From a virus: a stretch of DNA of 24,497 bases. Made by a program: the position numbers and the translations under genes. Each line of letters starts with the position of its first letter. The stretch's first letter is position 1. The notes beneath the pieces are model-generated. The model was not told the DNA's origin. It saw only the letters and a program-made list of their open reading frames with translations, and searched no databases. This document shows positions 1-23,627 of this stretch, piece by piece. The DNA is taken from IMG/VR virus record IMGVR_UViG_3300001213_001737, positions 1 through 24,497 of that record. One strand, written 5' to 3'.

Positions 1-447
1 CTCATCACGCTTTTCGTTCTCAAGCTCCAACCGATGAATCCGGTGATCTTGCTCTACAAGCTGATTGATAGTTCCCTGCAGGACCTCTAGGTGGCTCATA
101 GTAGGCAATGCCTTTGGATTAAAATAATTTTCCTCCAACTGGTCGAACATATCCCATGCCTGATCAGTACCAAGCATTTTGCAATGCCGAGAAGCTCCGC
201 GACGGGTCCAAAGAATAAGCGATGGAGCAAACTTTAAAGCTTCCCGGAAATTTTCCGGTAACCTTAATTTAAACTCCTTAAGGGTCTCCCCATTCAATTT
301 AAAAAAATGCTGTCCTTCCTGAAAACGTTCCGTATTTTTGCGATAATTATCCTGGATATTACTTCCTTCGCATCCATATACCTGCGCAAGTTGCTCCGTT
401 GTGAGAACTCTTTCCTCTTTGTACTCAATCACAGCCAAATTTTCCAC
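1..447 (-). CDS. ORF6N-domain antirepressor, C-terminus beyond window
   Basis: Open from a GTG at 447 to base 1 with no stop, so only the first 149 residues are present. The N-terminus reads through ERVLTTEQLAQVYGCE, FQEGQHFFKLNGE, LILWTRRGASRHCKMLGTD and AWDMFDQLEENYF, the recognisable layout of the ORF6N domain (about residues 8-110). A coiled stretch rich in Leu/Glu/Gln follows. ORF6N is a DNA-binding domain of phage antirepressors, usually joined to a C-terminal Ant/KilAC-type domain that would lie to the left. A GAGGG ribosome site sits about 8 nt upstream of the GTG. The gene is downstream of the ribbon-helix-helix gene at 606-764 and probably shares its promoter. Its ~160-nt leader is crossed by an antisense transcription unit. 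Domain call is firm; the antirepressor role is inferred from family and context. Confidence 0.85.
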   Translation of the reverse strand, partial: MENLAVIEYKEERVLTTEQLAQVYGCEGSNIQDNYRKNTERFQEGQHFFKLNGETLKEFKLRLPENFREALKFAPSLILWTRRGASRHCKMLGTDQAWDMFDQLEENYFNPKALPTMSHLEVLQGTINQLVEQDHRIHRLELENEKRDE

Positions 448-509
448 AAAAATAACCCTCTTTCATAATTTTTTGCACGTTAAATGCCGTAATGCAGCAC
501 ATTTATGCA

Positions 510-538
510 TTGAATTTTTCTTGAAATCGGGTTACAAT
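510..538 (+). promoter_or_regulatory. Promoter for antisense RNA (Psar-like)
   Basis: TTGAAT (510-515), a 17-bp spacer, then TACAAT (533-538): a close match to a sigma-70/SigA promoter. It points rightward, against the RHH-ORF6N operon, and no ORF follows before the terminator at 574-615. The -10 box lies in the left arm of a palindrome (530-539 with 559-568). Confidence 0.65.
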
Positions 539-568
539 AACAATCGTGGTGAGGTTGCTATTGTAACC
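530..568. repeat. Inverted repeat over the antisense promoter
   Basis: GGTTACAATA (530-539) is mirrored exactly by TATTGTAACC (559-568). The next four inner bases pair with one mismatch. The left arm contains the -10 box of the antisense promoter. It could be an operator on that promoter, or a stem in leftward RHH-ORF6N mRNA upstream of the antirepressor start. Confidence 0.6.
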
Positions 569-616
569 GCTTAGGCCGTCAGTTCTTGCTGGAACTGGCG
601 GTCTTTTAATTTTTTA
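545..616 (+). ncRNA. Candidate ~70-nt antisense RNA, sar-like
   Basis: Predicted transcript starts about 7 nt after the -10 box at 533-538 and ends in the U-run at 604-615. It contains no ORF and ends in a 12-bp GC-rich stem. It lies wholly opposite the RHH-ORF6N intercistronic region and overlaps the last codons of the RHH gene. Size, place and orientation match the sar antisense RNA of P22, which sits between arc and ant and limits antirepressor synthesis. Unlike sar, it does not reach the predicted ribosome site of the downstream gene (near 458), so it might act by transcription interference, attenuation or mRNA decay. The transcript is predicted, not shown. Confidence 0.5.
574..615 (+). 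terminator. Intrinsic terminator of the antisense RNA
   Basis: Arms 574-585 and 592-603 form a 12-bp stem (two G-U pairs) with a 6-nt loop. TTTT (604-607) and TTTTTT (610-615) follow on the + strand. There is no T-run on the - strand side, so it is directional and serves a rightward transcript. Confidence 0.75.
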
Positions 617-764
617 TAACGTTTTTCATAAGGTCCGGCTGTTTTGCAAGTAAATCATTGCGTATCAGTGCTGCAATATACTCTTTCATCGTGCGACCTT
701 CCAATGCGCACTGAAAACGCAAAACAGCTCGTAATTCGCTAGAAATAGTAATTAGTGTATTCAT
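606..764 (-). CDS. Arc-like ribbon-helix-helix regulator (52 aa)
   Basis: A 52-aa ORF with an excellent GGGGTGA ribosome site 5 nt before its ATG. The N-terminus has a short alternating strand (TLITIS, residues 3-8), then helix A (SELRAVLRFQCALEG), a turn, and helix B (RTMKEYIAALIRNDLL). This is the fold plan of Arc/MetJ ribbon-helix-helix DNA-binding dimers, and the length is almost that of P22 Arc (53 aa). It is the first gene after a near-perfect promoter (813-841) and precedes the ORF6N antirepressor, so by analogy it may repress its own promoter to limit antirepressor output. It could instead be a plasmid-type antitoxin, but no toxin lies beside it. Confidence 0.75.
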   Translation of the reverse strand: MNTLITISSELRAVLRFQCALEGRTMKEYIAALIRNDLLAKQPDLMKNVIKN

Positions 765-812
765 ATACTCACCCCTTTACTTAATAGTATTTAATACTAA
801 ATTTATAATAAG

Positions 813-841
813 ATAATACTACTAGATATTATTAATGTCAA
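813..841 (-). promoter_or_regulatory. Leftward promoter of RHH-ORF6N operon (Pant-like)
   Basis: On the - strand TTGACA (841-836) is followed after exactly 17 bp by TATTAT (818-813). Five of six -10 bases and all -35 bases match consensus. The palindrome at 785-799 would lie in the early transcribed region. Confidence 0.75.
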
Positions 842-854
842 TACTATTTTATAA

Positions 855-883
855 TGGAAATATTTCTTATTATAGTATATAAT
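855..883 (+). promoter_or_regulatory. Rightward promoter of HTH repressor gene
   Basis: TGGAAA (855-860), 17 bp, then a consensus TATAAT (878-883), with start expected near 890. The -10 box is inside the AGTAT-ATA-ATACT palindrome, suggesting autoregulation of the HTH gene at 917. Confidence 0.6.
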
Positions 884-916
884 ACTTATAGTTTTATATA
901 GTTTGGAGGAACTTCT

Positions 917-1354
917 ATGAGCTTTCAACATAATCTCAAGCAATACCGAGAACTGGCTGGTTACAAATCAGCTAAAGATTTCGCTACTACAGCAAAAATA
1001 CCATACACTTCATACATGAACTATGAAAATAAAGGAAGTTGGCCAAACGAAGAAAATCTCATAAAAATAGCTATAAACCTTGATATATCTATTGATAAAC
1101 TATTAGGACTAGACAAAGATAGTGAGTTGGAACGATGTAAAAGATTAATTGGCGGTAAATTCAAATTTAGTGAAACCAAAAATAAGATTGAAGTTTTCAT
1201 CCCTCCAACAGCATCCGTAAAAGGATCTATAAAATTTTCTAAGGAACGCTTTATCGATATAGTTCATAAATATGAATTACAATCTAAAGAGAATATCCCA
1301 AAATCTTTTTTTCTCGATTATGTATATAACTTCCCCGGATATCCCAAAACTTAA
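917..1354 (+). CDS. XRE-family HTH repressor (145 aa)
   Basis: Starts at the ATG after GGAGGA (905-910). Residues about 5-65 form an HTH_3/XRE domain: FQHNLKQYRELAGYKS (helix 1), AKDFATTAKIPYTSYMNYE (helices 2-3 with recognition helix) and a final helix ENLIKIAINLDISIDKLLGL. The C-terminal 75 residues are not recognised and carry no protease or peptidase motif, so this is not a LexA/CI autocleaving repressor. It is divergent from the RHH-antirepressor operon and occupies the place of mnt in P22 immI. It is AT-rich compared with the early operon. A bidirectional terminator at 1389-1428 isolates it from the next gene. Confidence 0.8.
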   Translation: MSFQHNLKQYRELAGYKSAKDFATTAKIPYTSYMNYENKGSWPNEENLIKIAINLDISIDKLLGLDKDSELERCKRLIGGKFKFSETKNKIEVFIPPTASVKGSIKFSKERFIDIVHKYELQSKENIPKSFFLDYVYNFPGYPKT

Positions 1355-2024: not shown

Positions 2025-3083
2025 TCAGTGATTAGCAAAATTATTTTCTTCCAAATAATCAGCAACTCCCTTATACCCGGGAAACAGCCTAGCCGTATTG
2101 TAACCTTCTATTTGCAATTGTTTTTTTAAATCACAAGAAATGGAATTAGGAAATATTATTTTATAAAATAAATAGTCTATATGCGCACTCTGAGGAGTAC
2201 TTAAATATTGTTCATATTTCTTTTCTTCATTATGATTATCAGAGAAATATTTCGTAAATAGCGAAGTAAGCTCGCTAGTATCAGCAGGTCCCCCTAAAAA
2301 CTTTTGAAATTGCCTAGATACTTCTGTATTAAACTTTATTCTATCATTGAGAATCTCGGGGTCTTTTTCACTAATTCCACTAAGCATGTTATATTGCCAA
2401 GCAGATAAGATTCCTTTTTGTGCATTGAGATTAGGGTTGTCACAATAGGCTGGTACACAAAACTTCAATGGTATCCTCTCATCATAAATTTCATCCATAA
2501 GTTTCCGTTCAACAACACATTTCGGTTCTGTTTCTAACCCACCAACAAGCCGAATGGCCTGTGAAGCTTGTTCCTCTTGCCTTTTTTGAATATAACCCAT
2601 ATTTATAGCCCAAATAGAACAATAATCTACGGATTTATCTGTAGCTTTACCACACGAAAAATATAATGCTACACGTATATCTTGTGTCCAATCTAGAAAT
2701 CTCGTTTTCAATCCATAATGTTGTGCTAATGCCTCTAATTCAAATATGCTATTATTGGGCCAATAGTAATCATCATTCATACCATAACCTAGATCAAAAT
2801 AATCTGACATATAAGTGGCACGAAATTTTTTTATATCTGGTACTTTTAGGCCTTGATTATTGCATTCCCTAAAAAATTTAATCAATAATTTTATTTCTCT
2901 CAAAAAGATATCATGATTAGGCATATTTGCAGGAATTTCCCTCAAAAGGACAGGTAAAAGACGATATTTATCATCAGCATGCCCTCTAAAAACATATCTT
3001 TTATAAAACGTACTATTCATATCATAAATTACATCATTTAATTGTTTTCGGGTATCAACTTTTATTTCCCTTACTAAGTCCAT
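2025..3083 (-). CDS. FRG-domain protein (cargo, possible defence gene)
   Basis: About 352 aa. The N-terminal part has YVFRGHADDKYRLLP (the FRG motif that names the family) and residues ~130-150 have LAQHYGLKTRFLDWTQDIRVALYFSC, split here as LAQHYGLKTRFLDWT and ALYFSC, the second conserved FRG block. FRG proteins are predicted enzymes of unknown activity, common in prophage cargo and defence islands. An in-frame ATG lies at 3092, but AGGGAT is well spaced only for the ATG at 3083, so that start is preferred. Possible -10 boxes lie at 3101-3106 and 3115-3120, and a terminator at 1906-1938, so the gene looks monocistronic. It is markedly AT-richer than the phage operon to its right, consistent with later acquisition. 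Confidence 0.8.
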   Translation of the reverse strand: MDLVREIKVDTRKQLNDVIYDMNSTFYKRYVFRGHADDKYRLLPVLLREIPANMPNHDIFLREIKLLIKFFRECNNQGLKVPDIKKFRATYMSDYFDLGYGMNDDYYWPNNSIFELEALAQHYGLKTRFLDWTQDIRVALYFSCGKATDKSVDYCSIWAINMGYIQKRQEEQASQAIRLVGGLETEPKCVVERKLMDEIYDERIPLKFCVPAYCDNPNLNAQKGILSAWQYNMLSGISEKDPEILNDRIKFNTEVSRQFQKFLGGPADTSELTSLFTKYFSDNHNEEKKYEQYLSTPQSAHIDYLFYKIIFPNSISCDLKKQLQIEGYNTARLFPGYKGVADYLEENNFANH

Positions 3084-3126
3084 GATAACCATCCCTAAAA
3101 ATTATATTTTTTTTATTATACTACTC

Positions 3127-4695: not shown

Positions 4696-5484
4696 TCATC
4701 CAAACAAGTCCATTTCGCGAGTACACGCTGGATTAAGATATATTATCTCAGTCGCGGTACCTGCGCAATTGGTCTGTGTCTTCATGCTATGTTTACTCCA
4801 TCCGACCAATATATCGTTGTACAACTCGTTTTCATAGCTGCTTACGATGCATGGCCCCGTATGCTTCTGGCAAAGCTGCAGCAGTTGTTCATGTTGGTCC
4901 GACGTCGAAAATTCACACTCATAATGCAATTGTGTGCGTGTACTCTTGAGATACGGCGGATCAACATATAGCAGCGTATTCGTCCTGTTATACATCGGGA
5001 TAAGCTCCAGCGCGTCCATACACTCAATCTGCGCCATCTTAAGCCGCTCCACGATAGCAATCAGCCTTGCCGGAAGCTGACACCAATACTTTGGACGGAA
5101 CACTGTATTTGTGCGGTCATGCGCCCATGATGATTTACAGTATGTCTTTCCGCCAAATGCCTGCCATACCCTAACAAGAAATCGCCGGGCTTGCTCAATT
5201 TCATTTCCTTTAATTTCATGACAACCGAGGTATTCTGCACGACTATATGGTGTCATTTCAAGAACCTCAGCCAGTTCGTCTGCAGAATCCCTAACCACCC
5301 GAAACAAATTGACAATGTTACTGTCAATATCATTGATTGTCTCGGTACCCGATGGAGCCTTTCGGAAAAATACGGCTCCACTACCAAAGAATGGCTCCAC
5401 GTATACATCATGGCGTGGGAACTGCCGTATTATCCAGTCAGCTATTCTCCATTTTGCTCCGGGCCATCGTAAGATTGTCTGCAT
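4696..5484 (-). CDS. Dam-type DNA adenine N6-methyltransferase (D12 class)
   Basis: 262 aa. RWPGAKWRIADWI at residues 6-18 is the N-terminal D12 signature, FFGSGAVFF (about 32-40) is the SAM-binding FxGxG motif, and DPPY (about 175-178) is the catalytic motif. Order (SAM motif first) and length suit the alpha/Dam class. Start is the ATG at 5484, 6 nt after GGAGG; an upstream in-frame ATG at 5514 has no site. The first 47 bases overlap the end of the cytosine methyltransferase gene, suggesting coupled translation. The likely role is to mark phage DNA against host restriction or to regulate phage genes. Target sequence cannot be read from the protein. Confidence 0.9.
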   Translation of the reverse strand: MQTILRWPGAKWRIADWIIRQFPRHDVYVEPFFGSGAVFFRKAPSGTETINDIDSNIVNLFRVVRDSADELAEVLEMTPYSRAEYLGCHEIKGNEIEQARRFLVRVWQAFGGKTYCKSSWAHDRTNTVFRPKYWCQLPARLIAIVERLKMAQIECMDALELIPMYNRTNTLLYVDPPYLKSTRTQLHYECEFSTSDQHEQLLQLCQKHTGPCIVSSYENELYNDILVGWSKHSMKTQTNCAGTATEIIYLNPACTREMDLFG

Positions 5485-7168
5485 GTTCCGCCTCCTCAAG
5501 TTTATAAGCGTCACTCACAACATCCGCTATGCTCTGTATTACAAAATCGGCACATGGCTGTGCCATGCCATTGCCCAATGCTTTATATCTTGCAGAGTCA
5601 CTGCCACCAGCGGTATACCCATCAGGTAAGCCCTGTAATCTCTCACACTCTACAGGTGTAAGCCGCCGTACCACATAAGCAACACGTACTGGATTGATAT
5701 AGTTTAAACTATAGCCACCATTTCCCTTGGCCTGTAATGTACCACTAATATTGCCTTCATTGATGTTACGGCAATCCACGGCTACCACAACATTATCAAC
5801 ATCTTTACGGTAACTCAGATTCCCTTTTGCAAGCAATGTGTTCGCTATGTTCTGATTTTCTGCGCTGCCATAGGGAACCATTACAGTTTGCTGATCATGC
5901 ATACAGTTCAATGCGCCAACTTTGTCCTGCAAATATGTTTGGCATAATTGCCCATTTCCCACGCAATAAGCCACGGCATGTCTATCGCCTACTGTCATCG
6001 TTGGCATTGGGTCACCAGATTTCCCTATACCAAGGCCATTTCCCGCACCATCATTCTGTCTAGTATCGCCACCACCCTTATATCTTGTGGCTTTATCATT
6101 TATCGGAATGGGTTCTTGTACAAGGGGAACCTGATTACCGCCCGTCCCCATCCTAGCATTTAGCGTTGGTACTATCCCATCTTTCACAAGCCGCATGACT
6201 TCATCTGCATGGGTCATATCCCAAATCTTAGGTTTTAGTACGCTTGGTCCACTTGTTCCTGCACTACGCATATTACAAGTCAATGTACAGGCAATGTCTC
6301 CTGTTATTGTGAAATTATACAGGTCTGAACCCACTATAACGGGCTCAAACAGTACCTGATCGTTGGTATTCGCCGCTAATGTCAAGGATTTCTCAATACT
6401 GACTAAAGCTCCTTTTCCTCCACCTTCACACCCACCTCGCATCCTAACGATTGCTGCTGCAATGCTATATGTAGCATTGCAGGTAGCGCCTTTCCTCTTG
6501 CCGCTGCCCGTCGCAATATTCCTTGACACGCTTTCGGACTTAAATAATATTTCTGCGGCACATCCACCTGTAAAATCTGCGACAAGGAAGATTCTCTTGC
6601 GACGCTGGGGCACTCCCCAATATTGGGCATCCATGACTCGCCAAGCGACTTCACAGCCATTGCTTCTGACCACCCCTGCGGGTGCCCAATCAATGCACCA
6701 CTCTTTGCTTTTGTTGTAGTGTCCAGACTTAGGAATTGGAATTTCGGCCTCTGTGATTTCTTCAAGCACGGCTCGAAAATCGGCTCCTTTGTTGCTACTG
6801 AAGGCTCCTGGCACGTTTTCCCAAACAAAAAATCTGGGATATCTCCCTCCTGCGGTATCCCGCATACTTCGAACAATGTCAATTGCTGTTCGGAATAAAC
6901 CACTCCGTTTTCCATCTAATCCCTCCCGTTTGCCTGCAATACTCAAATCCTGACAAGGAGAGCCGGCACATATAATATCTACTGGTTCTATTTCTGCTCC
7001 ATCGATCTTTGTGATATCGCCTAGCTGTGTTGTAAGCGGGAAGTGTCTCCGCGTCACTTCGCATGGGAAAGGTTCTATTTCGCTACTCCATACAGGGATA
7101 ATTCCTGCATGAACCGCCGCAAGCTGCCATCCTCCAATTCCATCAAACAGACTACCTAGTTTTAACAT
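5438..7168 (-). CDS. DNA cytosine-C5 methyltransferase (Dcm-like)
   Basis: 576 aa with the ordered motifs of C5 methyltransferases: FDGIGG (8-13, SAM), GSPCQDLS with catalytic Cys72, ENV (117-119), QRRKR (188-192), RRLTPVECERLQGLPDGY (about 510-528) and ALGNGMA near 540. The stretch between motifs VIII and IX, which holds target recognition, is about 300 residues. It is Gly/Asn-rich with repeated 'GTLQAKG/NTLLAKG'-like segments; multispecific phage C5 enzymes also have enlarged variable regions there. No endonuclease gene is adjacent, so it is an orphan modifier, most likely protecting phage DNA. It overlaps the small gene upstream and the adenine methyltransferase downstream. Confidence 0.92.
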   Translation of the reverse strand: MLKLGSLFDGIGGWQLAAVHAGIIPVWSSEIEPFPCEVTRRHFPLTTQLGDITKIDGAEIEPVDIICAGSPCQDLSIAGKREGLDGKRSGLFRTAIDIVRSMRDTAGGRYPRFFVWENVPGAFSSNKGADFRAVLEEITEAEIPIPKSGHYNKSKEWCIDWAPAGVVRSNGCEVAWRVMDAQYWGVPQRRKRIFLVADFTGGCAAEILFKSESVSRNIATGSGKRKGATCNATYSIAAAIVRMRGGCEGGGKGALVSIEKSLTLAANTNDQVLFEPVIVGSDLYNFTITGDIACTLTCNMRSAGTSGPSVLKPKIWDMTHADEVMRLVKDGIVPTLNARMGTGGNQVPLVQEPIPINDKATRYKGGGDTRQNDGAGNGLGIGKSGDPMPTMTVGDRHAVAYCVGNGQLCQTYLQDKVGALNCMHDQQTVMVPYGSAENQNIANTLLAKGNLSYRKDVDNVVVAVDCRNINEGNISGTLQAKGNGGYSLNYINPVRVAYVVRRLTPVECERLQGLPDGYTAGGSDSARYKALGNGMAQPCADFVIQSIADVVSDAYKLEEAEHADNLTMARSKMENS

Positions 7169-16481: not shown

Positions 16482-16501
16482 ATGTACAAGGAGTGATTCT
16501 A

Positions 16502-16873
16502 ATGAACACAGGTGCGCGTTTAAAGAAATTGCGCGAAGCCAAGGGTCTGTCCCAAGAAGAAGTAGCCAAAATTATAGGTGTTGGCAGAACCACCTATCTA
16601 AAATATGAAACTGGTGAAAACAAGCCCACACGTAAACTAAAAGAGTTGTCCGCTTTTTTTAATGTGAGTACAGACTATATTCTTGGTAATGATACCCCAT
16701 CTACTCCGAGGGAAAAAGATCCGGCTGATCTCACAAAATTTCTTAATCAGGCTGAGATTATGTTTGACGGTGACCTGTATAAACTCACAGAATCTGATCG
16801 TGAAAAAATTCGTGCCGCTCTTAAACTAGCTTTTTGGGATGCCAAGGAACGAAACAAACGCAAGAAAGGCTGA
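16502..16873 (+). CDS. CI/ImmR-like immunity repressor
   Basis: 123 aa from ATG 16502, 8 nt after AAGGAG (a GTG at 16493 overlaps that site). Residues ~3-63 are an XRE HTH: GARLKKLREAKGLSQEEVAK, GVGRTTYLKYETGENKPTRK, ELSAFFNVSTDYILG. The C-terminal half is a helical, charged region (LTESDREKIRAALKLAFWD) with no LexA-type Ser/Lys peptidase. It is therefore of the ImmR/phi105 kind, inactivated by a partner metalloprotease, and the next gene encodes one. Sets lysogeny by shutting the leftward early promoter. Confidence 0.85.
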   Translation: MNTGARLKKLREAKGLSQEEVAKIIGVGRTTYLKYETGENKPTRKLKELSAFFNVSTDYILGNDTPSTPREKDPADLTKFLNQAEIMFDGDLYKLTESDREKIRAALKLAFWDAKERNKRKKG

Positions 16874-16915
16874 TTCATTATAGAGAACGTACTACAATCA
16901 AAGGAATGATACTTT

Positions 16916-17350
16916 ATGCTGAACATCAAATTGCGCGTCAGAAATCTCGTAAAAAAATATGGTACTTCCAATCCTTTCCATCTTTCAAAGGATCTGAATA
17001 TCAAAATAATACACGCACCATTGCCGCATAATATTCGCGGCTTTTTGGTGCGTGTATTGCGATGTAAATATATTATTCTAAATGACGAACTTTGTTATGA
17101 GGCTCAAAAAATAACGGTATGTCATGAAATTGGTCATGCCCGGATGCATGAAGGATATGGGTATTACCTACATGCAGACCGCACCTATTACGTGCCATGT
17201 CGTCGAGAGCGCGAAGCAAACGAATATGCGCTACATCTTCTCTCCTACTCCTCCGATATGGATTGTGATGCTATATCTCGAGTTATTGCAGAGAAGCAAC
17301 CTGAGCCGCATGAAGTGCATCGAATATTAGGTATGATGATGGCTACATGA
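16916..17350 (+). CDS. immA: ImmA/IrrE-family anti-repressor metalloprotease
   Basis: 144 aa. HEIGH (70-74) is the zinc-binding HExxH, and EREANEYALHLL about 25 residues on gives the third ligand Glu. The N-terminal LVKKYGTSNPFHLSKDLNI and ILNDEL are usual for the family. ATG 16916 follows AAAGGA. In ICEBs1 and phi105 ImmA cleaves the ImmR repressor to induce excision, and the same gene pair is present here directly behind the repressor, so SOS or signal-dependent induction by cleavage is likely. Confidence 0.9.
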   Translation: MLNIKLRVRNLVKKYGTSNPFHLSKDLNIKIIHAPLPHNIRGFLVRVLRCKYIILNDELCYEAQKITVCHEIGHARMHEGYGYYLHADRTYYVPCRREREANEYALHLLSYSSDMDCDAISRVIAEKQPEPHEVHRILGMMMAT

Positions 17351-19203: not shown

Positions 19204-20829
19204 ATGGACATACTTTTAATTGAGCCTGCATATAAAAATAAATACCCACCTATGAGTCTAATGAAAATAAGTACTTATCATAAAAATCGCGGGGACAAGG
19301 TCTTCTTCATAAAAGGAATCAAAAAGCTCACAAAATCATGGGATAGAATTTACATCACTACATTATTTACTTTTCATTATTCAGATGTAATTAAAACCAT
19401 CAACTATTATAAGCCGTACGTATCTAACCAAAACAATATATTCGTCGGAGGAATTTTAGCTACTCTTTTACATGATGATTTATTAAGAGACAGCGGGGTA
19501 TCGAATATTATCAAAGGACGTTTATTGGATTCGGCTTTACTAGGTTTCAATGATCACATTAATATTGACTTATTACCTTTAGATTATGATATTTTATCCG
19601 ATACAGATTATCAATATCCATCTGGAGACAACTTCTTTGCTTATACTACACGCGGATGTATAAACCATTGCCCCTTTTGTGCCGTCCCTGAACTTGAAGG
19701 GAATTTGCAAATTACTAATAATATCGTTGAACAAATTATGTCTGCGCAAGAACTTTATGGAGATAAACGCAATTTATTACTAATGGACAATAACGTTCTA
19801 GCTCTTCCAGCCAACTCATTAAAAAAAATAGTAAACGACTTAAACGAATTAGGCTTTGTAAATACGCCTACATTCCAACATCCATCTGCTTTTTTAAAAT
19901 ATTTTGATATGTATCATCGTTATATATCCGAAAAAAAATGCACCACAAATATAGAAAAAAAGCTTTCTATGGCATTTGAAAAATTAACTACAAAACATAT
20001 TTCTAAAATATACAGAGAGCAGATTAATGATTTATTATCTAATATAGGTGCAATGTATGCAAATCGTACACAAATGATTCTTGACAATATTGACTTTTTC
20101 ATTAAAATAGAAAAAAAATATTCTTATAAAAAACCAATGCAACGTTTTGTCGATTTTAATCAAGGCATGGATGCTCGGCTCTTAACGCCAGAAAAAATGG
20201 GCATTTTGAGTCAACTGCCCATTCGACCTTTTCGAATCGCATATGATAAAATAAAATTAACTGACATATACACAAATGCCATACGTTTAGCCGCTCAGTA
20301 TGGAACGACTATTTTTTCTAACTATTTATTGTACAATTTCAATGACACGCCTATCGATTTATATAAACGCTTAGAAATAAATATTAGCTTAGCTGAAGAA
20401 TTAAATGTGCATATTTATTCTTTTCCTATGAAATTTGAACCTATAGAGAATAAAAAACGCGGGCACATTGATTCAAATTGGAACTATCACTATTTAAGAA
20501 GTATAAAGGCTATTTTAAATGTATCTAATGGCGTTTTTGGCGGAGATCGTAGTTTTTTTGAAAAAGCTTTTGGTCATAATGAAGTAGAATTTTATGAGAT
20601 ACTGTCAATGCCAAAAGATCTTTTGACTTATAGAACATACTATGAATCATTAGGCATTACGACTAAATGGCTCACAGAATTCAGAGACCTACCTCATTCG
20701 AGCCAAGCTCTTTTATTAAACCTTATATCAAAAGATATTTATCATAGTGACGAAGCCAGAGTGAATGATGTTTTACGATACTATAACCCTCAGCACATAA
20801 ACAAAAAAAAAGGAATCCTTAACATATAG
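19204..20829 (+). CDS. Radical-SAM protein with Rossmann-like N-terminal domain
   Basis: 541 aa from ATG 19204 after AAGGAG. The N-terminus (ILLIEPAYKNKYPPMSLMKI, then IFVGGILATLL near 80) looks like the cobalamin-binding-type Rossmann domain of B12 radical-SAM enzymes, but no DxHxxG histidine motif is visible, so B12 may not bind. YTTRGCINHCPFCAVPELEG gives the iron-sulfur CxxxCxxC (C152, C156, C159). LLLMDNNVLA, VDFNQGMDARLL and FSNYLLYNFNDTP are barrel-strand segments. There is a ~90-residue insert after the first strands. It follows the ParB-like gene by 58 bp and probably shares its transcript. The last codons overlap the terminator of the convergent operon. Substrate unknown. Confidence 0.82.
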   Translation: MDILLIEPAYKNKYPPMSLMKISTYHKNRGDKVFFIKGIKKLTKSWDRIYITTLFTFHYSDVIKTINYYKPYVSNQNNIFVGGILATLLHDDLLRDSGVSNIIKGRLLDSALLGFNDHINIDLLPLDYDILSDTDYQYPSGDNFFAYTTRGCINHCPFCAVPELEGNLQITNNIVEQIMSAQELYGDKRNLLLMDNNVLALPANSLKKIVNDLNELGFVNTPTFQHPSAFLKYFDMYHRYISEKKCTTNIEKKLSMAFEKLTTKHISKIYREQINDLLSNIGAMYANRTQMILDNIDFFIKIEKKYSYKKPMQRFVDFNQGMDARLLTPEKMGILSQLPIRPFRIAYDKIKLTDIYTNAIRLAAQYGTTIFSNYLLYNFNDTPIDLYKRLEINISLAEELNVHIYSFPMKFEPIENKKRGHIDSNWNYHYLRSIKAILNVSNGVFGGDRSFFEKAFGHNEVEFYEILSMPKDLLTYRTYYESLGITTKWLTEFRDLPHSSQALLLNLISKDIYHSDEARVNDVLRYYNPQHINKKKGILNI

Positions 20830-21277: not shown

Positions 21278-22504
21278 TCATACTTGATTCCTTTTTTCAT
21301 ATAATAAATAATAGACCAAATACAGCTGAAACTTGCCTATCTGACTCGTAAAATACTCATCTTTTTTTATTTGCAAACCCGCAAAGGCATTCTTCTGTTC
21401 CAAACCCACATTATAATATTTTTCAAAATCACCCCCGGTATCCATGTCTTTAAGACTATCACAAATTGCAATCAGCTTCTCTATCGTTAAAGACTCATCT
21501 ATTTTTGAATATGCAATTGGCGTAGAAATTTTTACTTCATGAAATAATTTGTCATCGTAAATATGTTCTCTGTCAAAGTGAGTAAAAATGGCAATATTAT
21601 CTTTGTAAGAAAAGTTCACTACCTTCCTAAGCGTATCTTGTTCAAGACATTTTTTTGTTGAAGAATAGACCAAGCCATTTTTTCCCGTTTCTTTTAAATA
21701 CTGTGCTACCATTTGGGGTAATACGTATTCTTCATAAAAATAGTAAGTTGAATGTTCTTTCTTCCTTTCAAAGCTACAACATTCTATTAAAATAAATTCA
21801 AAAAACCATTTTTTAAATTTATCAAGCGTAATTTCCTCACTATATTCAGGAATTAGACTGTCTGTCATTTTGCGCTTTAAGAAAAAATCTATTTTATTAC
21901 GAAAATCTATGACATCAAAACTGTTTTTAAATTCTATTGTAGATACCTTATATTCATCACATGAGTCTCCCCCTAGTTCGTTAATAATATCATAGACAGA
22001 AAGCCCTAAGTAGAAGAGGGGTTGCCCTGTTAAACTATATCGTTGATTGGATATTAAATAACGTTTATTAAAGGGAATATGAAACATATCCAATTTTGTT
22101 AATATATCTTGTGATTTTCTCGCTCTGAATAATATATATTTTTGTATATCAATTTCTTCATTTAGAATTTGCTTGGATTCGATAAATTTTTCTAAAAGAC
22201 TAATTGCCTCTTTGCTTTTGAAATCTATCCATTTGACATATATATTTTCAAGTTCTATAAACGCATCCTGTATGGTTGTAATATCTATTTCTTTTAAAAA
22301 TTGATAAACAATTTTTTCGTATTCTGTCATCTGGGATATTATAGTACCATCTGTACTTATTTGATTTTCAATCAATTTCAATTCAGTTAAAAACGCTAAC
22401 TTGTAGTTCTGTAAAACATCTTCATAACGCTCGCTTTCTACTTGGCACAATCGCCTTAGTTTAAACTGATATTGATGTGTAAAAAAATCTGCTATTTCAC
22501 TCAT
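21278..22504 (-). CDS. RES-domain protein (predicted NAD-consuming effector)
   Basis: 408 aa; ATG 22504 starts one base after the ATPase stop, with GGGGGAT upstream. An N-terminal helical region (1-115) leads to a RES-like core: YILFRARKS (Arg127, Arg129), MFHIPF (140-145), NQRYSLTGQPLFYLGLS (153-169) and NELGG with Glu176. RES toxins such as MbcT carry the same order of Arg, the 'RY/FS-x-x-G-x-P-x-x-YL' block, Ser and Glu, and break down NAD+. The C-terminal half (DKFKKWFFEFILIECCSFER and PQMVAQYLKE) is an extra domain. It is far longer than classic RES toxins (150-200 aa) and has no Xre antitoxin. Assigned by pattern, so moderately sure. Confidence 0.68.
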   Translation of the reverse strand: MSEIADFFTHQYQFKLRRLCQVESERYEDVLQNYKLAFLTELKLIENQISTDGTIISQMTEYEKIVYQFLKEIDITTIQDAFIELENIYVKWIDFKSKEAISLLEKFIESKQILNEEIDIQKYILFRARKSQDILTKLDMFHIPFNKRYLISNQRYSLTGQPLFYLGLSVYDIINELGGDSCDEYKVSTIEFKNSFDVIDFRNKIDFFLKRKMTDSLIPEYSEEITLDKFKKWFFEFILIECCSFERKKEHSTYYFYEEYVLPQMVAQYLKETGKNGLVYSSTKKCLEQDTLRKVVNFSYKDNIAIFTHFDREHIYDDKLFHEVKISTPIAYSKIDESLTIEKLIAICDSLKDMDTGGDFEKYYNVGLEQKNAFAGLQIKKDEYFTSQIGKFQLYLVYYLLYEKRNQV

Positions 22505-22505
22505 A

Positions 22506-23399
22506 CTAATTATCCCCCAAAAAATCTGCTAATGAATATATTTCCTGAATCTCTGCCACATTTTCTTCATTTTTAAATTCACGAATATTAAATCTTAAAA
22601 CTATATAGGTTCCTGGAAAAGTCTTTCGCATATCCTTAATAATTTGCCCACTATATTGATTCTCTGCTCTAAAAAAACACTTACCAGATATAATTTCCAT
22701 ACTTCCTCTATTATTTCTCACAGTTTTATCTACAAAATATAAGCCCACTCCTCCTATTTCTAAATTAGTTTTTGTCGTATTACCCAGTTTCAAAGCCCAC
22801 AAAATAGCTTCTGAGTCTTTATCAAATTGCATTTGTCGTTCTCTTTTTATAACATAACGCATGGTTTCTCCAAAATTTCCAATAATGAATTCCAAATCAC
22901 TGTTATCGTACTTCCAAGAAATTGTTACAAAAAAGGATTCTGCATGTTGTGTATTAATAAAGACTTCCATCAAACATTGTGATATCGTTTTATATGCATC
23001 AAATTTCCCTTCAAAATCAAAATAACGAAATATATGCTTTAAGTATTTGTTAAAATCATCTAACCTATTTGCCAAAAAAAACTTAAAAGAAGCATTTCTT
23101 AGTATGTTATCTTCTTCTATTCTCAGCAATTTTCCTTCAAAAAATAAATATTCTTTTTCTGTTTCATCTTCACCAAAAAAATTCCGAAAGAAGACCTTAT
23201 TTCTTTCTGCTAATTTGTATAATACCATCGTCAAAGGTGTAAACATTAGTATATCTATATAGCGTGTATGACAAAAATCTAATATTATTTTATCCCCACT
23301 ATGTTTTTTAAATGAAAACCATAAATTTGATATATAATTAATAGTTTTTTCCGCATCTTCAATATTTCTTGGCATATTTATTTCTATACATTTATCCAT
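22506..23399 (-). CDS. GHKL/HATPase_c-like ATPase with STAS-like N-terminus
   Basis: 297 aa from ATG 23399 with GAGG 6 nt upstream (ATG 23411 lacks a site). N-terminal ~75 residues (KIILDFCHTRYIDILMFTPL) look STAS-like, strand-then-helix. The GHKL fold follows: CLMEVFINTQHAES (N-box), LEFIIGNFGETM (degenerate G1 in place of DNGxG) and EIGGVGLYFVDKTV (G2), then strands (GSMEIISGKCFF, TYIVLRFNI). This matches an anti-sigma/SpoIIAB-type ATPase rather than a histidine kinase; no dimerisation-phosphotransfer helix is visible. It heads the RES/DUF4325 operon and is the likely sensor or regulator. AT-rich. Confidence 0.72.
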   Translation of the reverse strand: MDKCIEINMPRNIEDAEKTINYISNLWFSFKKHSGDKIILDFCHTRYIDILMFTPLTMVLYKLAERNKVFFRNFFGEDETEKEYLFFEGKLLRIEEDNILRNASFKFFLANRLDDFNKYLKHIFRYFDFEGKFDAYKTISQCLMEVFINTQHAESFFVTISWKYDNSDLEFIIGNFGETMRYVIKRERQMQFDKDSEAILWALKLGNTTKTNLEIGGVGLYFVDKTVRNNRGSMEIISGKCFFRAENQYSGQIIKDMRKTFPGTYIVLRFNIREFKNEENVAEIQEIYSLADFLGDN

Positions 23400-23627
23400 T
23401 GCTATCCTCATTTCTTATTTGAAAATATAAAAACCGCCAAATAGATTATGACGCAGTATAAAACAATGGAGTATCTTGTATTTCATTATATCAAGCCGAT
23501 ATATTCTGTCAATCATCATATAATAAAAAGGAAGATGACGACAAAAATCATCTGTAAATGCATACATCGCATCAAAGACCACTACCTTGGAAATAAGATT
23601 CATACGATTAGTTTTAGGAGGATTATC

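Follow-up and report, generated by a model that had tools for sequence, protein, structure and literature searches.

A predicted antisense RNA switch before an ORF6N antirepressor gene, built like units that precede prophage recombinases

Results

A probable antirepressor cassette with a predicted opposing transcription unit

We analysed a 24,497-nucleotide (nt) stretch of viral DNA (the window), positions 1 to 24,497 of IMG/VR record IMGVR_UViG_3300001213_001737, from a prophage whose host we take to belong to the bacterial class Negativicutes (Selenomonadaceae-like), referred to below as the class. The left end of the window carries a leftward pair of genes, for a 52-amino-acid (aa) ribbon-helix-helix (RHH) protein and then an ORF6N protein, divergent from a rightward helix-turn-helix (HTH) gene at 917. 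All of these parts had been named in an initial annotation of the same DNA and all are present, each gene being preceded by a good Shine-Dalgarno (SD) site (Table 1). Between the RHH and ORF6N genes lies a short predicted opposing transcription unit. It is most likely a distant relative of the antisense switches found in integrase leaders of the class, or at least their equivalent in architecture, here placed before an antirepressor gene.

The full ORF6N gene encodes 252 aa (L002:3421-4179), and its product matches several PHROG anti-repressor families (8.5e-39); it is probably an active antirepressor, whose synthesis would trigger lysis. Its small partner is less easily placed: the 52-aa protein had no confident family match in profile searches, no homologue in phages or viral contigs and a single marginal match in 380 class genomes. 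However, its single-sequence AlphaFold model (pLDDT 80.9) has an extended N-terminus followed by helices at residues 9-22 and 26-41, and a Foldseek search of this model against the PDB returned almost exclusively RHH repressors (omega, CopASO, ParG, AmrZ, Arc and CopG), with TM scores of 0.6-0.7 and modest to weak E-values. We accept from this modelled fold that the protein is probably RHH. The HTH protein reaches 1.5e-11 with the NCBIfam RstR model, yet stays under that model's cut-off, and it has no homologue among the viral contigs.

The opposing unit ends in a strong intrinsic terminator. A terminator with a 12-bp stem had been annotated at 574-615; the element is real, and we locate it at 573-604 with 14 pairs. 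The RHH stop codon (606-608) falls within its U-rich tail (605-613), and the terminator serves the + strand only: on the - strand both of its two G.U pairs would turn into A-C mismatches and the U-run would be missing. No + strand gene lies upstream of this terminator, which sits inside the - strand operon, and RNA from 541-616 folds with a z-score of -5.2. The opposing promoter at 510-538 is likewise present, although 'near-consensus', as it had been called, overstates a 9/12 match that is common by chance. A short antisense transcript is therefore likely to be made from the 545-613 unit because the terminator is strong, not because of the promoter. No Rfam family matched the window at the gathering threshold and none meaningfully at E <= 10, the c4 RNA family of P1/P7 included. 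Similarly, no homologue of the unit was found in phages, plasmids or viral contigs (blastn and two DNA patterns) or elsewhere in the genome (blastn).

A type I antitoxin has the same layout, a short opposing RNA that ends in a strong terminator next to a phage repressor, and the unit could be the relic of such a system, an antitoxin-like RNA left behind after loss of the toxin gene. We regard this as very improbable: the - strand of 448-605 contains no small hydrophobic open reading frame (ORF) of at least 40 aa, there is no Rfam match, and the related units described below also lack a toxin and face recombinases.

Table 1. Features of the antirepressor cassette and of the second immunity region (window positions).
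Feature	Position	Strand	Details or basis
ORF6N protein, probable antirepressor; start GTG 447	1..447, runs past window edge	-	PF10543 E 7.9e-20
ORF6N SD region TGAAAGAGGGTTA	453..465	-	
Predicted antisense promoter TTGAAT-17-TACAAT, 9/12; -10 inside 530-568 hairpin	510..538	+	consensus scan
Putative anti-SD segment TAACCCGATTTCA, overlapping arm B	522..534	-	inverted repeat I11
Arm B, TTGTTATTGTAACC on mRNA; predicted partner arm A or, via its 3' end, the SD	530..543	-	
Predicted antisense RNA, about 65-70 nt, without ORF	545..613	+	promoter plus terminator
Arm A of leader hairpin, GGTTACAATAGCAA on mRNA; complementary to 5' part of predicted antisense RNA	555..568	-	
Intrinsic terminator of predicted antisense RNA	573..604	+	14 pairs, 7 G-C, 4-nt loop, then TTTTAATTTTT
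52-aa RHH protein (by modelled fold)	606..764	-	AlphaFold model and Foldseek; sequence orphan
Palindrome AGTATTTAATACT, putative operator just downstream of RHH promoter, just inside RHH transcript	786..798	.	
Predicted RHH-ORF6N operon promoter TTGACA-17-TATTAT, 11/12	813..841	-	consensus scan only
Predicted HTH-gene promoter TGGAAA-17-TATAAT, 10/12	855..883	+	consensus scan only
Palindrome AGTATATAATACT, putative operator over -10 of HTH promoter	874..886	.	
HTH_3 (cI/RstR-like) regulator, 145 aa	917..1354	+	Pfam HTH_3 E 2.5e-7
Second immunity region: cI-like repressor (16493-16873) and M78 metallopeptidase (16916-17350)	16493..17350	+	Pfam HTH_3 2.2e-15, Peptidase_M78 1e-7

A leader hairpin that may gate the ORF6N Shine-Dalgarno

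The leader between the two leftward genes contains two overlapping inverted repeats. The first, I7, pairs 530-543 with 555-568 (13/14) as arms B and A of a hairpin that surrounds the predicted antisense -10 and start; the second, I11, pairs 453-465 with 522-534 (11/13) and takes in the ORF6N SD. When the part of the leader that would be covered by antisense RNA (605-545) was blocked in the fold, mean openness of the ORF6N SD fell from 0.64 to 0.22, and the direction was the same for five different segment lengths. This drop was equalled by none of 300 whole-leader shuffles of any of three kinds and by 7 of 300 spacer shuffles. The joint score for A:B and B:SD pairing was 51, a value reached by 0/1000 shuffles, 0/35 leaders of ORF6N homologues and 7/502 control leaders. 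Six of these seven controls are themselves members of the group described below (L161, L159, L162, L152, L151 and L141, among which the C40 leader occurs three times), and the seventh, L094, is a non-member. No terminator-like site occurs near the ORF6N SD on the - strand, and because the B:SD stem-loop lacks a U-run, translation is the predicted target of the switch.

The position of the predicted RNA bears on how it might act. The initial annotation had compared the locus with P22 immI, where the sar RNA covers the ribosome-binding site (RBS) of ant. Direct occlusion of this kind does not fit, as the predicted 5' end (about 545) lies 98 nt from the ORF6N GTG at 447 and leaves the SD (463-455) uncovered. 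A true sar-like RNA over the ORF6N RBS would have to start further upstream, for example at 319-347 inside the ORF6N gene, and use the same terminator. An extended -10 promoter-like match with TG, CTGAAA-17-GATAAT, does exist at 319-347, and a transcript from it would cover both start codon and SD, like P22 sar. We nevertheless consider this quite unlikely, since this match too is no better than 9/12, a level often reached by chance, other units start inside a hairpin and not in a gene, and the layout of arm A, arm B and anti-SD is left unexplained.

Related units precede recombinase genes

Loci related to this unit were traced by searching for terminators shaped like the one at 573-604. The first relatives came from a pair of prophages that belong to a single genus of the class (genomes G151 and G168; viral contigs L063 and L068), where the unit is placed between the M78 gene of a repressor operon and the integrase. 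A covariance model built from these two integrase leaders only (R1) gave matches in 13 of 300 class genomes and in two loci outside the class (L160 and L161), and a second model (R2) was built from 13 units with the window left out. Matches L165 and L166 were rejected as terminator look-alikes and L147 as a partial match in a non-phage context, and terminator-only look-alikes in viral contigs were dropped on context. Rfam searches of 11 related loci returned tRNAs only.

Altogether we examined 17 other units (L144, L145, L148-L161 and L163), 16 of which directly precede recombinases: 11 tyrosine integrases and five serine recombinases (L148, L149, L153, L159 and L163). The remaining unit precedes a 93-aa protein without a Pfam match. 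In these loci an opposing promoter and terminator lie in the gap before the target gene, and in many cases the upstream gene on the same strand stops at the antisense terminator or close to it. The window has the same arrangement, with the terminator at the end of the upstream gene, a hairpin of arms A and B that holds the antisense -10, and an arm B that overlaps the anti-SD; unlike the recombinase targets of those 16 units, its target is ORF6N. The likely relatives of this unit are integrase-leader antisense units and not immI-type units. That the window unit is their architectural equivalent has good support, and common descent is possible.

Two clear units lie in the same genome as the window: L152 (G000:C40:17985-18121), which faces a tyrosine integrase, and L163 (G000:C8:114908-115048), which faces a serine recombinase, both with M78-like or repressor-operon genes upstream. 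The two units outside the class, L161 and L160 (genomes G412 and G447), precede tyrosine integrases, that of L160 having an extra HTH domain. In L161, arm B and the SD share an 8-bp match and a further 6-bp match.

In nearly all units the anti-SD of arm B tracks the SD, even as the latter varies (GGAGGTC, GGAGGCT, GGAGGTT, AAAGGCGG, GGAGCTG). The anti-SD/SD pairs include GACCTC/GGAGGTC, AGCCTCC/GGAGGCT, TGACCTCC/GGAGGTTA, GCCGCCTTT/AAAGGCGGT, CAGCCCCTT/AAGGAGCTG, ATCAGCTCTT/AGGAGCTGAT and, in L161, ATTCCTTT/AAAGGAAT. Shuffled versions of arm B equalled the observed anti-SD score in at most 13/300 cases, except in L155 (121/300), in a test that left out L160, L161 and L163. Blocking the antisense-covered part lowered SD openness in 15 of 18 units, the window included, with a negligible drop in L161. 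Joint scores in several other units were 41-46, reached by 5-10% of controls, and none was obtained for L154, L158 and L160; therefore the case rests on the group, not on each unit.

This tracking also bears on whether SD pairing might be incidental, with the antisense RNA acting in the gap between the RHH and ORF6N genes either through cleavage by RNase III or through collision of polymerases in convergent transcription. The dicistronic unit would allow both, since it contains a convergent promoter and the two RNAs would be perfectly complementary over about 60 bp. However, neither mechanism would lead one to expect arm B to overlap an anti-SD. Such an overlap is present in nearly all units, the sequence of the anti-SD changing with the SD, and we consider this explanation unlikely.

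Several results weigh against an antisense switch of the integrase-leader type in the window. The promoter at 510-538 taken by itself is at chance level (17 such matches found against 9.9 +/- 3.3 expected); the position of its -10 agrees with the integrase-leader units. R1 scores the window at 30.3 bits (437-613), which speaks for such a switch, but the figure is partly circular, the founders of the model having been picked by terminator similarity to the window. R2 gives the unit (445-613) 35.3 bits (E 2.4e-4 for a search of the window and 0.034 for one of the genome), and membership by sequence is borderline because a plain terminator in the same genome, a non-member, scores 34.5 bits with the same model. 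Three of the 18 units fail to close the SD in the fold (L151 and L154 move in the opposite direction and L163 is unchanged), and the distance from arm B to the start codon is 82 nt in the window against 18-39 in the other units. Both the RHH protein and the unit are orphans, and of about 40 loci of ORF6N homologues that were checked none has an RHH gene or a comparable opposing terminator there. Finally, both transcription and function of the antisense unit are read from sequence.

Predicted divergent promoters, putative operators and neighbouring genes

The leftward operon and the HTH gene have predicted divergent promoters, each with a palindrome close by. The palindromes AGTATWTAATACT at 786-798 and 874-886 are the sole exact AGTATNNAATACT copies within the window, and twins like these arise in 3/3000 shuffles, scored with a 5+3+5 pattern (the second palindrome has 5-bp arms). 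Both are likely operators of the HTH protein, the RHH protein or both.

Regulatory proteins of this kind raise the possibility that there is no regulatory RNA, the hairpin at 573-604 merely stopping stray + strand transcription and the 530-568 repeat being a DNA operator for one of the regulators of the cassette. The repeat is indeed a good DNA palindrome around the -10 of a weak promoter, and the genes for the RHH and HTH proteins are its neighbours. Against this, the operator-like palindromes at the main promoters differ from it in sequence, its arms form G.U pairs on the - strand RNA that would be A-C on the opposite strand, which fits RNA, as do the G.U pairs of the terminator, and a further 17 loci show this layout although their arm sequences are unrelated. 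We judge this alternative to be distinctly improbable.

The separate cro/cI-type region that the initial annotation reported at 16.4 kb is confirmed, with the HTH_3 gene starting at 16493 and the M78 peptidase gene at 16916, both on the + strand. Contig C12 yielded no tyrosine integrase. An FRG-domain protein (2025-3092, -) that adjoins the antirepressor cassette looks like a moron or defence cargo, and a 51-aa zinc-ribbon-like ORF lies nearby at 1423-1578. In addition, the prophage encodes three DNA methyltransferases, each of another type: C5-cytosine, D12 adenine and N6_N4 (5438-7168, -; 4696-5514, -; L002:123-1571, -). Beyond the repressor region, a Radical-SAM-like protein (19204-20829, +) and a gene group at 21278-23411 (-) resemble non-phage cargo or chromosome.

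Discussion

The cassette combines ordinary parts in an unusual way, and the parts, their geometry and the recurrence of the layout are directly observed. We lean, by a narrow measure, towards the interpretation that the RHH-ORF6N operon is an antirepressor cassette in which an antisense RNA, as in the integrase-leader type of switch, gates ORF6N translation. Two locks would then operate. At the level of transcription, the HTH and/or RHH proteins would bind the twin palindromes and shut the leftward promoter. At the level of RNA, a short rightward transcript would start from 510-538 inside the leader hairpin, end at 573-604 and bind the leader, pairing with arm A and everything upstream of arm A and not with the ORF6N RBS. 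Without this RNA, arms A and B would pair and leave the ORF6N SD free. With it, the fold predicts that arm B is released and that its end, UAACCC, pairs with the SD (GGGUUA), so that antirepressor translation would stop. In a lysogen the RNA lock would keep the antirepressor low, and a burst of operon transcription that outran the antisense RNA would allow antirepressor to be made and a repressor to be inactivated, which might be the cI-like protein encoded at 16.5 kb or the repressor of a different phage.

Antirepressors under antisense control are known from P22 and P1/P7 (PMC12197685, PMC8201110, PMC2629481). The gene order of repressor, small RHH gene, opposing short RNA and antirepressor is indeed that of P22 immI as annotated in NC_002371. 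Further likenesses are an RHH gene of the same size, an opposing RNA of about the same length whose terminator finishes at the stop codon of the RHH gene (arc in P22), an antirepressor downstream and an additional immunity region at another site. As the initial annotation held, the repressor and antirepressor families are different ones (HTH_3, an RHH protein without an Arc match, and ORF6N): Mnt and Arc of P22 are PF03869 and Ant is P22_AR_N/C, so the proteins are not homologous, and an HTH protein stands in the place of Mnt. Moreover, P22 sar (3022-3091) fills the arc-ant gap and abuts the ant start at 3092, whereas the window RNA stops short and is predicted to act through a structural switch instead of direct cover. 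The cassette is in the style of immI and is not an immI homologue. In the immI region of P1/P7 (c4 RNA/icd/ant) an antirepressor is likewise under antisense RNA control, and the ORF6N protein of the window aligns at 34% identity with the P1-type Ant of RCS47, itself an ORF6N-domain protein; however, c4 targets the RBS of the icd/ant leader and there is no convergent unit after an RHH gene (PMC8201110, PMC12197685).

The initial annotation knew of no Gram-positive example, a statement that two precedents qualify. The first is the plasmid pMV158, whose copG-RNAII-repB system is governed both by a small RHH repressor and by an antisense RNA (PMC5703833). There too the RHH gene is co-transcribed with the target and the antisense RNA is directed against the gap just upstream of the target RBS (PMC5703833); the differences are that the RNAII promoter lies within repB, the target is a replication initiator and RNAII is thought to hinder the ribosome directly. 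The second comes from four Streptococcus pyogenes prophages, in which antisense RNAs upstream of integrases (SP119_SR034, SR071, SR086 and SR106) were detected by RNA-seq and proposed to silence the integrase in lysogens (PMC6431027). Compared by description and not by sequence, these resemble the window unit as antisense RNAs in the gap upstream of the faced gene in a Firmicute prophage, and differ in that their target is an integrase and not an antirepressor. For an antisense-controlled antirepressor in a Firmicute itself, no paper was found in the open-licence literature searched. The switch logic has its own precedent in pT181 repC and pIP501 repR, where an antisense RNA on the leader blocks pre-emptor pairing and a downstream RBS stem-loop forms (PMC5703833). 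The window shares this logic, with a predicted action on translation, whereas the main effect in pT181, a plasmid and not a prophage, is transcription termination.

We also inspected seven streptococcal or lactococcal phage integrase leaders by eye. In five of them a gene end is followed by an opposing hairpin, then by arms A and B of a repeat around a TATAGT-like -10, which lies with arm B, and last by the SD. These leaders (L170, L171, L172, L173 and L175) are possibly kin to the S. pyogenes antisense family (PMC6431027). The SD switch was not significant by folding in the streptococcal leaders looked at, and R2 does not detect the streptococcal/lactococcal integrase leaders. A weak streptococcal blast match, Javan454, was set aside as unrelated to an integrase.

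Taken as a group, the units may represent a portable RNA module, absent from Rfam, in which an antisense promoter within a hairpin, an antisense terminator and an attenuator made of arm A, arm B and anti-SD form a general prophage 'lysogeny lock' of the class, set before tyrosine integrases, before serine recombinases unrelated to them and, in the present case, before an antirepressor, as a translational counterpart of pT181-type attenuation. We hold this broader proposal tentatively, at somewhat short of an even chance. If it is right, this family of antisense switch units would be a possible addition to Rfam and would offer a testable mechanism for the RNA-seq antisense RNAs upstream of streptococcal prophage integrases. 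The units would also make a compact, mutable test system, in which mutating the antisense RNA or the anti-SD should make prophage excision or antirepressor synthesis independent of the protein repressors. Antisense control of antirepressors would then extend beyond enterobacterial phages, and a single RNA architecture would be seen to serve repeatedly in front of genes that settle whether a prophage remains or exits.

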